Positions 23,069-28,070 of a stretch of DNA of 28,070 nt are shown here, one piece after another. The stretch is from the NCBI GenBank assembly GCA_903847195.1, contig CAINCZ010000088.1, positions 1 to 28,070 on the forward strand. The letters are read 5' to 3'. Below the pieces are notes generated by a model. The model did no database searches. It was not told where the DNA came from and saw only the letters and a list, made by a program, of their open reading frames with translations. The translations under genes and the position numbers were made by a program. The first letter of the stretch is position 1; every line of letters begins with the position of its first letter. Origin of the DNA: an uncultured Acidobacteriota bacterium. Its GTDB lineage: Bacteria; Acidobacteriota; Terriglobia; Terriglobales; CAINCZ01.

Positions 23069-26000
23069 CTACTCAATGACGAGCAGCAGGTCTTTGGATT
23101 CGACATGTTGGCCTGACTTCACGAGCACCTGCTTCACCGTTCCGCCCACCGGCGAATAAACGGTGCTTTGCATCTTCATTGCTTCCATCACCAGCAGGCG
23201 GTCTCCCTTTTGGATCTTCTGGTTCAATTCAATCGCTACGATTGACACCACGCCGGGGATGGGTGCGCCGATTTGTCCGGCCTGCGCAGGATCAGCCTTG
23301 GGACGGACGGGGGCTTTCGCGTCCAGCTTGCGATCACGAACGGTAACCTCGCGGGGCTGCCCGTTCAATTCGAAGAAGACAATGCGGGTGCCGTCCGGAT
23401 GCGGGTCACCCACGGTGAGGAACTTGACGACCAGCGCCTTGCCGGATTCGAGTTCGACGTTGACCTCCGAGCCGCACTCCATGCCGTAATAGAACTGCGG
23501 TGTCGGAAGCACGTCGATGTCGCCCCAATTCTGGTGGTTGCGGGCGAACTTTACGAACACATCCGGATACATGAGATAGCTGAGCACTTCATCATGTGAA
23601 GGCTGGCGGCCGATCTTCTTCTTGACCGCAAGCGCGGTTTCAGCGAGGTCAACGGCCGGGAGCTTGGCGCCCGGGCGGCCACGCTGGGGCTTGGCGCCAC
23701 GCAGGATGATCTGCTGGATCTTCTTCGGCCAGCCACCATCGGGCTCGCCCAGCGACCCCATGAACATGTCGATGACCGAGGCCGGAAGCGTAAGGCTGTG
23801 ATCCGGTGTGAGCCGGCAGAACTGCTCGATCGTCATGTCATGGGTGACGAGGAAGATTGCCATGTCGCCCACGACCTTGCTCGACGGCGTGACCTTCACG
23901 ATGTCGCCAAAGGCCATGTTGACCTCGGCATAGGTGCGGGCAATTTCGTGCCAGCGCAGGCCGAGTCCCATGGACTCTGCCTGCTCTATCAGGTTGGTAT
24001 ATTGGCCGCCGGGCATCTCGTGGATGTACACCTCGGCGGTACCGGCCTTGGGACTGGTATCGAACGGCAGATAGTACTCGCGCACCGCCTCCCAGTAGTT
24101 GGCGCAATCATTGAGAGCGTCGAGATCCAATGCCGTATCGCGCTTCGTACGGGTCAGCGCAGCAACCACGGAGTTCAGGTTGGGCTGGCTGGTCTGGCCG
24201 CTCATGGAAGCGATGGCGCCGTCGGCGACATCCACACCGGCATCGGCCGCTTTGAGAATGGAGGCGGCGTTGAGTCCACTGGTGTCATGGGTATGGAAGT
24301 GGACCGGGATCTCAACTTCCTGACGAAGGGTCTTCACCAGCTTCTCGGCGGCATAGGGACGGCACAGGCCAGCCATATCCTTGATGGCGAGCATGTGGGC
24401 GCCCATGCGCTCGAGTTCCTTGGCCATGCGCACGTAGTAGTCGAGCGAATACTTATCGCGCTTGGGATCGAGGATGTCTCCGGTATAGCAGACGGCGGCC
24501 TCGCAAACGGAGTTGGTCTTGCGCACGGCCTGCATGGAAGCCTTCATGTTCGGCAGCCAGTTCAGCGAGTCGAAGATGCGGAAGATGTCGATGCCCTGCG
24601 CGGCAGATTCCTTGATGAACTCGGCCACCACGTTATCGGGATAAGCCGTGTAGCCAACGCCATTGGAAGCGCGCAGCAACATCTGGAAGCAGATATTGGG
24701 AATGGCTTCGCGCAGCTGGCGCAAGCGGGCAAAGGGAGACTCATGCAGGAAGCGCATGGCGACGTCGAAGGTCGCGCCGCCCCACATTTCCACACTGAAG
24801 AGGTTGTGCAGGCGATGCGCCACGAAGTTGGCGATCGCCATCATGTCGTAGGTCCGGACACGGGTGGCCAGCAGCGATTGGTGTGCGTCGCGAAACGTGG
24901 TGTCGGTAAGCAGCAGGCGGCGCTCGGAGCGCGCCCACTCCGCCAATCCCTTGGGACCAAGACGCTGTAATAGCTGCCGGGTTCCGTCCGGAGGAGCGCC
25001 GACAATGCGCGGCGGCACCGGTGCACGGTCCAGCCGCTTCGGAAAAGGCTTGCCGCTGACTGCCGGGTTGCCGTTGACGATCACATCGCCGAGATAGGCC
25101 AGCATGCGCGTCGCGCGATCGCGCTTGGGCGCGAATTGGAAGAGCGACGGAGTCTGCTCGATCCAGCGAGTGATCACCTGGCCGGACCTGAACTCAGCGT
25201 TGTTGACCACGTTCTCATGGAAGGCGATGTTGGTCTTGACGCCGCGGATACGAAACTCGCGCAAGCAGCGGTCCATGCGCTGGCATGCCTGCTCAAAATC
25301 GCTGCCCCAGGTGGTGACCTTCACCAGCAGGGAGTCGTAATAGGGCGTGATAACGGCATTTCCGTATGCGGAACCGCCGTCCAGCCGGACGCCGAATCCG
25401 GCGGGCGAGCGGTAGGTGGAAATCCGGCCGTAATCGGGGACGAAATTGTTGGCCGGATCTTCGGTCGTGATGCGGCATTGCAGCGCGTAACCGTAGAGCG
25501 GAATCTTCTCCTGCGCGGGCAGGTTCATCTCTTCCCCGTGAAGGGAGTGGCCCTGCGCGACCTGGATCTGCGCCCGCACCAGGTCGATGCCGGTCACCAT
25601 CTCGGTGACGGTGTGCTCCACCTGAATGCGCGGGTTGACTTCGATGAAGTACCACTTGCCGGAATCCGCATCGACGAGGAACTCTACGGTGCCCGCGTTG
25701 CGGTACCCCGCAGTGTGGGCGAGCTTGACGGCGGCGGCGTGCAACTCCACGCGAATGGTCGCATCGAGCGCCAGCGCGGGCGCAACCTCAACCACCTTCT
25801 GGTGACGGCGCTGCACCGAGCAGTCGCGTTCGTATAGGTGGAGGACGTGGCCGTGGTGATCCCCTAAAATCTGGACCTCGATGTGGCGGGCGCGCCGGAC
25901 GAAGCGCTCGATGAAAACCGCGTCGTTGCCGAAGGAGGCTGCGGCCTCGCGGCGAGCCTCCTCCAGCTTCCCGGCAAAGTCGGCAGGCTTGTCGACCACC

Positions 26001-26506
26001 CTCATGCCGCGGCCGCCGCCTCCGAACGCAGCCTTGATGATGAGCGGGAAGCCGATTTCAGCGGCAATCCTGGCTGCCTGCTTCGGGTCCTTAACCGGCT
26101 CGGGCGTGCCCGGAACCACCGGGATGCCGGCCTTCTGCGCCAGCCGCCGCGCTGCCGTCTTGTCACCGAGCAGATCGAGCAGCTTCGCGCCGGGGCCGAT
26201 GAAGGCGATCCCGGCACGTTCACAGGCCCGCGCCAGCGCCGGGTTCTCAGAAAGAAAGCCGTAGCCGGGATGGATCGCGTCCACGCCCTTTTCCCGCGCG
26301 AGGGCAACGATGCCGTCGACATCGAGATAGGCCTCAACCGGGCCCTTTCCCGCGCCAATCAGGTAGGCCTCATCGGCCTTGAAGCGATGAAGGGCGAGGC
26401 GATCTTCCTGTGAATAGATCGCTACCGTGCGGAGGCCGAGCTCATTGGCGGCCCGAAGGATGCGTATTGCGATTTCGCTGCGATTTAAGGCAAGAAGTTT
26501 CTTCAT
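23069..26506 (-). CDS. pyc: pyruvate carboxylase, single-chain biotin enzyme
   Basis: 1145 residues from the ATG at 26506, chosen because the family start (KKLLALNRSEIAIRILRAA) follows; an ATG at 26554 adds a 16-residue hydrophobic extension. Domain order: biotin carboxylase with ATP-grasp (1-450, glycine loop AAFGGGGRGMRVV), carboxyltransferase (about 530-810, DTTFRDAHQSLLATR, metal site HFHTHD, carbamylated-lysine segment AIKDMAG), tetramerisation domain, and C-terminal biotinyl domain with EAMKMQS (Lys1111). It carboxylates pyruvate to oxaloacetate with ATP and bicarbonate, which is anaplerotic. The usual N-R-G-E-I-A start reads N-R-S-E-I-A, a small oddity. No biotin ligase or regulator is beside it. 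The ribosome site is weak. It is the last certain native gene before the tRNA scar. Confidence 0.96.
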   Translation of the reverse strand: MKKLLALNRSEIAIRILRAANELGLRTVAIYSQEDRLALHRFKADEAYLIGAGKGPVEAYLDVDGIVALAREKGVDAIHPGYGFLSENPALARACERAGIAFIGPGAKLLDLLGDKTAARRLAQKAGIPVVPGTPEPVKDPKQAARIAAEIGFPLIIKAAFGGGGRGMRVVDKPADFAGKLEEARREAAASFGNDAVFIERFVRRARHIEVQILGDHHGHVLHLYERDCSVQRRHQKVVEVAPALALDATIRVELHAAAVKLAHTAGYRNAGTVEFLVDADSGKWYFIEVNPRIQVEHTVTEMVTGIDLVRAQIQVAQGHSLHGEEMNLPAQEKIPLYGYALQCRITTEDPANNFVPDYGRISTYRSPAGFGVRLDGGSAYGNAVITPYYDSLLVKVTTWGSDFEQACQRMDRCLREFRIRGVKTNIAFHENVVNNAEFRSGQVITRWIEQTPSLFQFAPKRDRATRMLAYLGDVIVNGNPAVSGKPFPKRLDRAPVPPRIVGAPPDGTRQLLQRLGPKGLAEWARSERRLLLTDTTFRDAHQSLLATRVRTYDMMAIANFVAHRLHNLFSVEMWGGATFDVAMRFLHESPFARLRQLREAIPNICFQMLLRASNGVGYTAYPDNVVAEFIKESAAQGIDIFRIFDSLNWLPNMKASMQAVRKTNSVCEAAVCYTGDILDPKRDKYSLDYYVRMAKELERMGAHMLAIKDMAGLCRPYAAEKLVKTLRQEVEIPVHFHTHDTSGLNAASILKAADAGVDVADGAIASMSGQTSQPNLNSVVAALTRTKRDTALDLDALNDCANYWEAVREYYLPFDTSPKAGTAEVYIHEMPGGQYTNLIEQAESMGLGLRWHEIARTYAEVNMAFGDIVKVTPSSKVVGDMAIFLVTHDMTIEQFCRLTPDHSLTLPASVIDMFMGSLGEPDGGWPKKIQQIILRGAKPQRGRPGAKLPAVDLAETALAVKKKIGRQPSHDEVLSYLMYPDVFVKFARNHQNWGDIDVLPTPQFYYGMECGSEVNVELESGKALVVKFLTVGDPHPDGTRIVFFELNGQPREVTVRDRKLDAKAPVRPKADPAQAGQIGAPIPGVVSIVAIELNQKIQKGDRLLVMEAMKMQSTVYSPVGGTVKQVLVKSGQHVESKDLLLVIE

Positions 26507-26763
26507 GGGAATTACCAGACCGGGAGAGGCAATAAGAAACATTAACAAATGCATCTACTAAAGAACAATCCGGCGCAGGGCGCTCTTGACGGGGAACGTG
26601 CAGCCACGGCCAGGTCGGAGATCCTTGGGGAGAGTACGGGGAAGGCCCCTGAATTGGCCCAACAAGCCGACTCCGGCTTGAACGGCACCCAAGTTACAGC
26701 AGAACCGGCAGTCGCCAGAGCCGTCGTGATGCAGTAAACGCCTTGTTTACTGCTATTTGCATT
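26507..26763. other. intergenic region between pyc and the tRNA fragment
   Basis: About 257 bases without a convincing gene. It should hold the leftward pyc promoter. A frame of 62 codons on the plus strand (26549-26737) has no ribosome site or family likeness and ends inside a hairpin, so I take it as chance. Confidence 0.5.
26731..26753. repeat. hairpin gcagtaaac-gcctt-gtttactgc
   Basis: A perfect nine-base-pair stem with a 5-base loop, 10 bases from the CCA end of the tRNA fragment. On the plus strand it is followed by tatttgcattt. It could be the old tRNA terminator or a recombination-linked site; the minus-strand tail is not U-rich. Confidence 0.55.
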
Positions 26764-26808
26764 TGGTGGCGGCGGTAGGACTCGAACCTACGACCTACGG
26801 ATTATGAG
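26764..26808 (-). other. 3' half of a CAT-anticodon tRNA (Met type): putative attachment site scar
   Basis: On the minus strand the segment reads as anticodon loop CTCATAA, 3' anticodon stem TCCGT, variable loop AGGTC, T stem-loop GTAGG-TTCGAGT-CCTAC, acceptor strand CGCCGCC, discriminator A and encoded CCA. The 5' half is absent: the five bases ahead of the loop (ATGCT) cannot pair with TCCGT, and no D arm or GGCGGCG acceptor strand follows. The break is at the anticodon loop, the usual crossover point of one class of tyrosine recombinases. The orientation implies the native chromosome continues to the left (pyc) and the inserted element lies to the right. Elongator Met versus Ile2 (modified CAT) cannot be told from half a tRNA. 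Confidence 0.85.
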
Positions 26809-26834
26809 AGCATTAACAACTAATGTTTGCAATA

Positions 26835-26888
26835 ACTTACAAGAACTCCAAGGACTGCCAAGTTTCTGTAAGTGCTTGTAACTACAAG
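26835..26888. repeat. inverted repeats beside the attachment site
   Basis: acttaca (26835-26841) and tgtaagt (26867-26873) form one inverted pair. cttgta-ac-tacaag (26875-26888) is a second perfect inverted repeat. Both share a ttacaag/cttgtaa core. They sit within 80 bases of the tRNA scar in unusually AT-rich DNA, where recombinase or directionality-factor sites are expected. Confidence 0.55.
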
Positions 26889-26902
26889 AAACGGTTTTGA
26901 AT

Positions 26903-26924
26903 TTCGGGTTGAGATTCGGGTTGA
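26903..26924 (+). repeat. direct repeat ttcgggttga x2
   Basis: Two identical 10-base copies (26903-26912, 26915-26924) repeat every 12 bases. Spacing near one helix turn fits arm-type protein-binding sites, but this is only suggestive. Confidence 0.5.
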
Positions 26925-27185
26925 AAGTAGGGCGCAATTGCGGGTGCGGCGCAAAACTGGAAAGTCGCACTTCACTCCCGAGCCTACCCCCCTGCATCGC
27001 CCCTCCGTTCCGCAGCCTCTCCAGACCCTTTTGCACCAGCCTGCCGTTGATTGTGGGCGGCGTCACGAGCAGCCATAGCCCCCTTTCGCCCGTTGCTGGT
27101 GTCTGATTAATTATGGCGAACAAAAGGCGAAGATGTTAGACTCGCCGGAAGAACTCGCGCAAGTCTTGCACGAGCAGGTCTCCGG
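26925..27185. other. island DNA without a recognised gene
   Basis: Several overlapping short frames exist on both strands, among them a 111-codon minus-strand frame that runs across the tRNA scar (26788-27123). None has a ribosome site, a known motif or consistent codon use. I take this stretch as non-coding or decayed. Confidence 0.45.
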
Positions 27186-27197
27186 ATGCCAGTTTCA

Positions 27198-27377
27198 ATG
27201 GACGAGGGTCGAAAACGAGTGCTGCTGATCGCAGCGAGCATTCTGGCTGCCCGGAGGCTGGCACAGTACGATGGCGGGGCTCGGGTGCCTGCGACGATAA
27301 GCGCGATCGCCGATGCCGTCCGCTGGGCTGAGGAGATCATGGCTGAGATTGATCGGCGGTGGCCGACGGCAAAGTGA
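27198..27377 (+). CDS. small helical protein, function unknown
   Basis: 59 residues from the ATG at 27198 (MDEGRKRVLLIAASILAARR); an ATG at 27186 adds four residues. The sequence is helix-rich, with a balanced mix of charged and hydrophobic residues (AIADAVRWAEEIMAEIDRRW) and looks like real coding DNA, unlike the frames around it. There is no signal peptide; one moderately hydrophobic helix (residues 8-18) is too short for a sure membrane span. No ribosome site is obvious. It lies on the island side of the tRNA scar, about 390 bases from it. I do not recognise a named family. Confidence 0.5.
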   Translation: MDEGRKRVLLIAASILAARRLAQYDGGARVPATISAIADAVRWAEEIMAEIDRRWPTAK

Positions 27378-27703
27378 GGCCCCGCTCTGCCCTATGCCTC
27401 CGGTGACGGCGCTTCGATATGACGACAGCTGTCTATGCGATTGTGGGAGCCTTTTCCGCGTTGGATGCCACGCTGACCGATATGCAAACGTGGAGGCCGC
27501 GCTTCAACGGACATGGGCGGTGTTGCAGGAGTTGGAGAGAGTTGAAGCGCCGAGCAGACCCGAGTTGTCTACCAAGGATCGGAGTACCTGACAGCATCTG
27601 CTTCCACTGCCTCCCCCGACCGAGCACCTGCAGGTTGCTGCTGACTGGCGGATTCCCCCAGTTGGGTGTTGCCACTGGCAGCAGTCGCCAGTACACTTCT
27701 CGA
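27378..27703. other. gap with in-frame open sequence of doubtful coding status
   Basis: The frame of the DUF4007-like sequence stays open upstream to an ATG at 27419, but the translation (many Cys, Arg and Pro) looks non-coding after about 20 codons. A second frame (VEAALQRTWAVLQELERVE, about 27490-27546) looks coding-like for a short stretch. This could be a small frameshifted gene remnant; I see no intact gene. Confidence 0.4.
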
Positions 27704-27936
27704 GTGCTAATTCCTCCGAATGCGATTGTTCCCTCTTTGCAGTTCTCTGGTCACGAGACATTCCCTCTTCGGCAACTCTGGTTGCGCAAGGCGTATGACG
27801 TTCTGACAACGTCTTCAGGGAAAACAAAGGGGGTCTTTGCCGATCAGGACGCGATCGTTCGTTTTGGGGTAGGCAAGAACATGGTAACGGCGATAAAGCA
27901 TTGGTCGCTTGCTACCGAATTCATGCAGGATGACCT
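27704..27936 (+). pseudogene. DUF4007-like protein, N-terminal part only
   Basis: In one frame the sequence reads FSGHETFPLRQLWLRKAYDV, then DQDAIVRFGVGKNMVTAIKHW and SLATEFMQDD. These are the conserved N-terminal motifs of DUF4007 (FSGHETF, then DDAIVRFGVGKNM and a tryptophan). The start is unclear: a GTG at 27704 or a TTG shortly before FSGHETF, neither with a good ribosome site. A normal member is about 300 residues, but likeness stops at about 27936, after some 65 residues, although the frame stays open to the window edge. DUF4007 genes are, as far as I recall, found beside DndC-type PAPS-reductase-like genes in DNA phosphorothioate loci; the exact role is unknown. I call it a remnant or interrupted gene, with an intact divergent gene as the alternative. 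Confidence 0.6.
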
Positions 27937-28070
27937 GCAAGGCGGTTTTCGGTATCCGTCCGAGCAAGGACATTCTGTTGCCGTGCGGCGGGTTGTGTTG
28001 AACTCGAAGCATGAGGAAAGCGAGCGGGCAGTTGAAGGGCAGACGTCGGAGCCGCGTCGAGGCGGAGCGG
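27937..28070 (+). mobile_element. possible left end of an IS66-like insertion sequence, partial
   Basis: The DUF4007 likeness ends where the sequence becomes gcaaggcggttttcggtatc. IS66-family ends usually start with GTAAG-type bases, so gcaagg is a near but imperfect match. A new frame begins 74 bases later (28011) whose first residues resemble IS66 accessory proteins. The right end and target duplication are outside the window, so this stays tentative. Confidence 0.3.
28011..28070 (+). CDS. partial ORF resembling the start of an IS66 TnpA-type accessory protein
   Basis: Twenty codons are present before the edge, reading MRKASGQLKG then RRRSRVEAER. A basic start followed by a helix ending EAER is like the opening of small IS66-family TnpA proteins, which continue with a helix-turn-helix. 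The evidence is short and rests on resemblance. There is no clear ribosome site. If right, it supports an insertion into the DUF4007-like gene. It could also be an unrelated small DNA-binding protein. Confidence 0.3.
   Translation, partial: MRKASGQLKGRRRSRVEAER

Follow-up and report, generated by a model that had tools for sequence, protein, structure and literature searches.

Half of a tRNA gene, standing alone between a housekeeping gene and genes of foreign appearance, raises the question of what cut the gene and what lies on either side of the cut. The window (the whole stretch of 28,070 nucleotides that was analyzed, from an uncultured soil acidobacterium) carries such a half close to its right end. 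With a probability of about 0.85, this fragment marks the border, on the side of the host, of an element (a genomic island or a prophage) integrated in an elongator tRNA-Met gene. The reading rests on the remnant with its cut, its polarity and its identity, on right-hand genes that look foreign and on a parallel in G181, a genome of the same family. The features around the cut are the following:

23069..26506, minus strand: pyc (pyruvate carboxylase), the first chromosomal gene on the presumed native side, with biotin carboxylase, PYC_OADA, HMGL-like and biotinyl domains
26507..26763, no strand: spacer from the pyc start to the tRNA remnant, with a terminator-like hairpin at 26731-26753
26764..26808, minus strand: orphan elongator tRNA-Met(CAT) 3' half of 45 nt, corresponding to the 3' half of intact genes at three viral loci and at genome loci
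26809..27185, no strand: A+T-richer stretch without a recognized gene, with an imperfect inverted repeat (26827-26847/26861-26881)
27186..27377, plus strand: ORF of 63 aa, from an unnamed conserved small-protein family (2170 homologues, no Pfam match)
27743..27979, plus strand: N-terminal part of a DUF4007/SspB-type gene (PF13182, PADLOC SspB)

The Orphan tRNA-Met 3' Half

The 45-mer has a single site in the window (26764-26808, minus strand, 0 mismatches), and none of 100 dinucleotide shuffles contained it with ≤3 mismatches, in agreement with the original prediction of an orphan 3' half of a CAT-anticodon tRNA. Read on the minus strand, it is composed of the anticodon loop CTCATAA (anticodon CAT), the 3' strand of the anticodon stem, a 5-nt variable loop, the T arm with its TTCGAGT loop, the 3' acceptor strand CGCCGCC and, finally, A and CCA. 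It corresponds to the 3' half of the intact tRNA-Met genes in L087-L089 and L180-L182. When compared with the intact tRNA-Met of L088 and G005, only one base matches 5' of C32; hence, the identity begins where the anticodon loop does on its 5' side, at the predicted cut. The matching 5' half is missing, also as predicted: with introns disallowed, ARAGORN reports no tRNA anywhere in the window, a Met 5'-half pattern with ≤3 mismatches has no match in it, and Rfam at the gathering score finds nothing in it. When positions 26764-26840 are folded, no structure appears beyond the T-arm hairpin and a weak hairpin next to it (z -0.94).

The original prediction left the isotype between tRNA-Met and tRNA-Ile2. 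Two other types of CAT genes are present in the family, reading TGCGGGG...CCCCGCAACCA and GGGCCCTT...AGGGCCCACCA; going by general tRNA features, we take them to be the initiator Met and the Ile2-like genes, respectively. Both differ strongly from the fragment in the letters of the acceptor and the stems; hence, the fragment belongs to an elongator tRNA-Met, and the Ile2 option is dropped.

Measured against the features used by Islander, the fragment is terminal and not internal, as it is a 3' half running through the CCA over 45 of 45 nt. It overlaps no conserved coding domain, the overlapping ORF (26788-27123) being without a Pfam match, and its identity block starts in the anticodon loop (the A subsite) with L088 and G005 as references.

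In phage DNA, 377 records match the fragment, 52 of them with a best place of at least 99% identity. The best 20 of these 377, ranked by letters covered times identity, reach 81.6-89.1% and fall in tRNA-Met, tRNA-Lys or unannotated places. Plasmid DNA gave 86 records, the best 20 of which reach 83.3-88.9%, in unannotated places.

The Presumed Chromosomal Side

To the left of the fragment lie 26 kb of chromosomal-looking genes, most of them judged by eye. The nearest one, pyc, has its best identity (83%) with Ca. Sulfopaludibacter (L001), followed by 78-82% with L002-L008 and L031. Judged by pyc, the host belongs to the Acidobacteria and stands close to Solibacter/Sulfopaludibacter.

The comparison covered 80 pyc loci of relatives, many labelled Bryobacterales or Bryobacteraceae, with at most 8 kb on each side and often less. 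A blastn search of positions 26501-28070 against them gave one match at E ≤ 0.01, to a tRNA-Arg; the spacer had no match at this threshold, and tRNA-Met or a similar fragment was present in 0 of the 80. All 12 other left-hand genes tested (12/12) were absent from these loci as well. The gene order around pyc is, hence, not kept, and the absence of tRNA-Met from the 80 loci says little. The spacer (26507..26763) is presumed to be native DNA that once lay 3' of the tRNA gene.

The Right-Hand Side

The GC content of positions 26801-27200, 0.520, is the lowest among 70 intervals compared. The inverted repeat within the A+T-richer stretch has an identity of 76% over 21 nt. This stretch (26809..27185) is presumed to be the arm DNA of the element's attachment site and would function as such.

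The 63-aa protein encoded at 27186..27377, presumably cargo of the island, has 2170 homologues at E ≤ 1e-3 in the protein collection and no match in Pfam. None of 150 family genomes gave a match (0/150); among 396 phylum genomes, the same query matched in one, so that the search was able to find it. In the best 120 of the 2170 homologues, a near-invariant core is visible. The one match among the 396 phylum genomes (L274) lies ~1.2 kb from type I restriction-like ORFs, and a relative in the viral contig L187 lies near cytosine-methyltransferase and Vsr-like ORFs; these neighbors, all assigned by eye, resemble genes of defense systems or phages.

The last gene matches PF13182 (2.1e-23, profile positions 1-77 of 288) and the SspB profile of PADLOC (4.2e-28, positions 1-72 of 282), and it reaches 54-56% in tblastn against SspB-like ORFs of the viral contigs L081-L084. 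DUF4007 is described as a component of Ssp, of type-4 BREX and of another defense system in the part of the literature drawn on here (PMC12839542). As to the completeness of an Ssp or type-4 BREX system, positions 1-77 of 288 of the profile are matched before the window ends. The similarity stops near 27979, ~90 bases before the window end at 28070; the gene may be interrupted at this point or may have diverged. No integrase was recognized in the 1.26 kb to the right of the cut, a view bounded by the end of the window.

The right-hand genes look foreign, and the island probably carries phage-defense genes. Relatives with pyc and the right-hand genes together had been named beforehand as a find against the original prediction; neither the 63-aa protein nor DUF4007 was found at the 80 pyc loci, over the same ≤8 kb, often shorter, on each side.

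tRNA-Met Sites in Related Genomes

The first 41 of the 45 nt, without the final ACCA, were used as an exact probe. This 41-mer is present in the intact tRNA-Met of three viral contigs (L087-L089) and of 2 of the 396 sampled phylum genomes; in one of the latter, G448, it occurs on two contigs, apparently from one locus. Among the 237 genomes of the family sample, no exact copy was found (0/237), and 50 have it with one or two mismatches.

Two settings of tRNA-Met are recognizable in the family. In the first one, the gene mostly ends in CGCCGGC or CGGCGGC and faces parB. In one set of loci (L124, L125, L129, L146 and L149-L179, Bryobacteraceae), it does so over a short distance in 33 of the 35 loci that belong to the family; the full set counts 38, including three from other families, these without parB. 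This arrangement is strongly kept in part of the family. L124 has a CGCCGCC end, yet faces parB. In the second setting, that of the genomes closest to the window, the acceptor end of the gene reads CGCCGCCACCA, as in the fragment, and the gene lies behind hflX. This is the case in 5 of the 5 nearest genomes with the 5' flank in hand (G001, G002 and G005-G007), a count without G003 and without G004, in which the tRNA is cut by the contig end. In the 1.5-kb flanks of further CGCCGCC-type loci, hflX is present in L304-L306, L319 and L330 and was not seen in L303, L307-L310, L312-L314, L316, L328 and L329.

The T stem differs from that of the fragment in every nearest relative inspected. The fragment fits the clade, yet none of the genes inspected is its exact parent. 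As tRNA-Met stands elsewhere in the relatives, it must, if the fragment is an island border, have stood by pyc in the lineage of the window; among the relatives examined, none has tRNA-Met beside pyc.

At the locus L180 (positions 87-283, genome G495), a second copy of the T arm and acceptor end adjoins the 3' end of an intact tRNA-Met and is joined to other DNA, so that part of the tRNA is repeated in tandem every ~117 bases.

The fragment was first read as foreign, from the 0 of 237 exact copies and the 33 of 35 parB-facing loci. This was demoted to an alternative, as the nearest genomes have the CGCCGCC end and the hflX site.

A Parallel in Genome G181

With the T stem left free, the 3' half matches in 120 of the 237 family genomes, two of which (G149 and G181) have more than one copy. 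In G149, both copies are intact tRNA-Met genes near contig ends. G181 contains four matches (L331-L334). The contig of L333 carries hfq, hflX and an intact tRNA-Met and ends 5 bases later. That of L334 begins inside what is apparently the same tRNA and encodes a tyrosine integrase (PF00589, 5.4e-26) with a frame ending in the tRNA. The two others (L331 and L332) are orphan 3' halves, one with 0 and one with 5 bases of identity kept 5' of C32. A second integrase (PF00589, 1.7e-28) has a frame that overlaps L331; from ~1.8 kb beyond the 3' side of L332, there follow a phosphoglycerate-mutase-like gene, enolase and a gene resembling glgC (the last one by eye). The tRNAs cut by a contig end (L317 and L334) were left out of the orphan counts.

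G181 reads as a genome with islands stacked in tRNA-Met, L332 lying toward the chromosome if the contigs follow each other in the order that we propose. By analogy, the position of L332 reads as matching that of the fragment before pyc. The DNA after the L332 orphan resembles the DNA after the L334 tRNA; hence, a piece of another element may separate this orphan from the chromosome, and L332 is not surely a clean border.

tRNA-Met Halves and Integrases in Viral Contigs

A pattern search in viral contigs returned 91 stretches; 80 of them and L089 (81 in total) were classified by ARAGORN. Among the matches listed, 73 of the 81 tRNA-Met-type matches are intact and 8 are orphan 3' halves, of which L226 and L245 are one sequence, leaving seven distinct orphans. 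A PF00589 integrase is found 0.14-0.34 kb from four of them (L183, L202, L216 and L236), always on the 5' side of the orphan. This speaks against an island border in the window, as it is the place where the 1.26 kb in view shows none. For L226, L238 and L242, no integrase was present among the few neighbors scanned; a serine resolvase lies near L238. Several bases of the 5' stem are kept in L202, L216 and L236, and L216 has no CCA.

In the three contigs with the exact 41-mer (L087-L089), a PF00589 integrase lies 3' of the intact tRNA-Met in 3 of 3. In L089, a PF00589 gene is also present on the 5' side of the tRNA, and the 5'-side gene of L087 and L088 has an integrase N-domain at sub-threshold level only. 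In each of the three, the intact tRNA-Met stands between two integrase-like genes that share a strand; the frame of the 3'-side integrase ends inside the tRNA in L087 and L089.

The motif ACTTVCRA was considered as an arm site of the integrase and rejected as post hoc and weak. It occurs 6 times vs. 0.92 expected in 15 border/integrase loci and also 10 times vs. 3.78 expected in 68 mostly intact loci, some of which are the same place twice.

Proposed Integration and Alternatives

A 3' half with its 5' side pointing to the right places the element on the right and the chromosome on the left. The predicted arrangement (native chromosome left, island right) is supported by the polarity, by the point of the cut and by the genes present, all of which agree with it, and G181 offers a parallel. 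We infer the integration event itself, together with the location of the integrase, as follows. A tyrosine integrase would cross over in the anticodon loop of tRNA-Met, and the attachment site of the element would itself contain a copy of the tRNA 3' half. Joined to the host 5' half, this copy would rebuild a working tRNA at the other end, and the original 3' half of the host would be displaced to the far end, as a non-functional remnant beside the chromosome. The DNA from pyc leftward would be chromosome, the element starting at ~26809 and running rightward out of the window. Going by the nearest relatives, its other end would show an intact tRNA-Met with hfq-hflX on its 5' side. The integrase would lie there beside the intact tRNA, by the layout of G181 and L087-L089.

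The best surviving alternative, an improbable one, is a chimeric contig, in which the assembler joined a chromosome end (the tRNA 3' half and the pyc side) to another replicon with the same half. Some contigs of related drafts (G149, G181 and G004) indeed stop at copies of tRNA-Met, so that assemblers have difficulty with repeats of this kind. The stretch shared here would be only ~46 nt; yet, an artificial junction of a host 3' half and an attP arm would look exactly like a true border.

Somewhat less probable still is a copy borne by the element itself, which remained at a secondary site or following a later deletion, with the attB of the genome elsewhere. It would suit the position of pyc away from tRNA-Met in the relatives examined, and an exact 41-mer that is absent from the 237 family genomes yet present in three viral contigs. 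However, such an element would extend toward pyc, i.e., into 26 kb of seemingly chromosomal genes (mostly judged by eye), the genes that look mobile sit on the opposite side, and the acceptor end is that of the nearest relatives' own tRNA-Met.

An intron-containing or split tRNA with its 5' half nearby, which the original prediction had set against itself, can practically be dismissed: only with introns allowed does ARAGORN report a gene, a tRNA-Leu(TAA) at c[26764,27001] with a 157-nt intron, but this call has one mispaired acceptor position and an anticodon unlike that of the 100% tRNA-Met 3' half, intron-containing calls also arise in 8 of 200 mononucleotide shuffles of the flanks that left the fragment intact, and the window contains no Met 5' half for a split gene.

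Read as the border of an element in tRNA-Met, the fragment locates an island end with single-base precision in an uncultured acidobacterium and tells which gene to expect at the opposite end. With G181 added, it points to a stacking of tRNA-Met islands in this family, a help in the search for cargo such as defense genes. A tentative and rather doubtful extension is that unrelated islands with phage-defense genes regularly dock and stack at the elongator tRNA-Met of Solibacter-group Acidobacteria, with the 63-aa protein as a common small component. The insertion is of a common type, here with one end only in view, and no general idea on integration is changed.

Comparison with Known Systems

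Among the literature matches listed, no report of tRNA-Met islands in Acidobacteria was found. The Solibacter usitatus genome is described with sixteen candidate islands and with tRNA genes, tRNA-Met not being named in the sections of the report considered here (PMC3174227).

In tDNA islands, as outlined in the parts of the Islander report drawn on here, a piece borne by the element restores the gene, and the displaced fragment is left at the other end (PMC4383910). Among the 3919 candidates of the same source, a 3' fragment is listed for 3760 islands and an anticodon-centered site for 2083 (PMC4383910). The window resembles the Islander-type islands of the A subsite in its far-end tRNA 3' fragment cut in the anticodon loop; it differs from them in showing one end, without an intact tDNA or an integrase in view (PMC4383910).

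The stacked islands of G181 share with the window the same tRNA gene, the same family and orphan halves with the cut at that loop or close to it, one orphan lying on a contig with housekeeping genes. On the contrary, the neighbor is enolase and not pyc, the T stem is another one and the flanking DNA is unlike, and the G181 contigs are placed in a deduced order.

The dnd islands of E. coli also bring phosphorothioation-type defense genes on islands at tRNA genes (PMC4373003). In the passages cited, the tRNAs are leu, thr and phe and the genes are dnd, where the window has an ssp/DUF4007 gene (PMC4373003).

A tyrosine integrase acting at a host tRNA gene is likewise found in the tRNA-dependent lysogeny of mycobacteriophages (PMC10865867). 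These phages differ, according to the portions of the study used here, in an attP and attB that share ~10 bp and in a tRNA that is not rebuilt, the phage supplying its own (PMC10865867). The window, in comparison, has a long 3' half at the border, as expected for the rebuilding of the gene.
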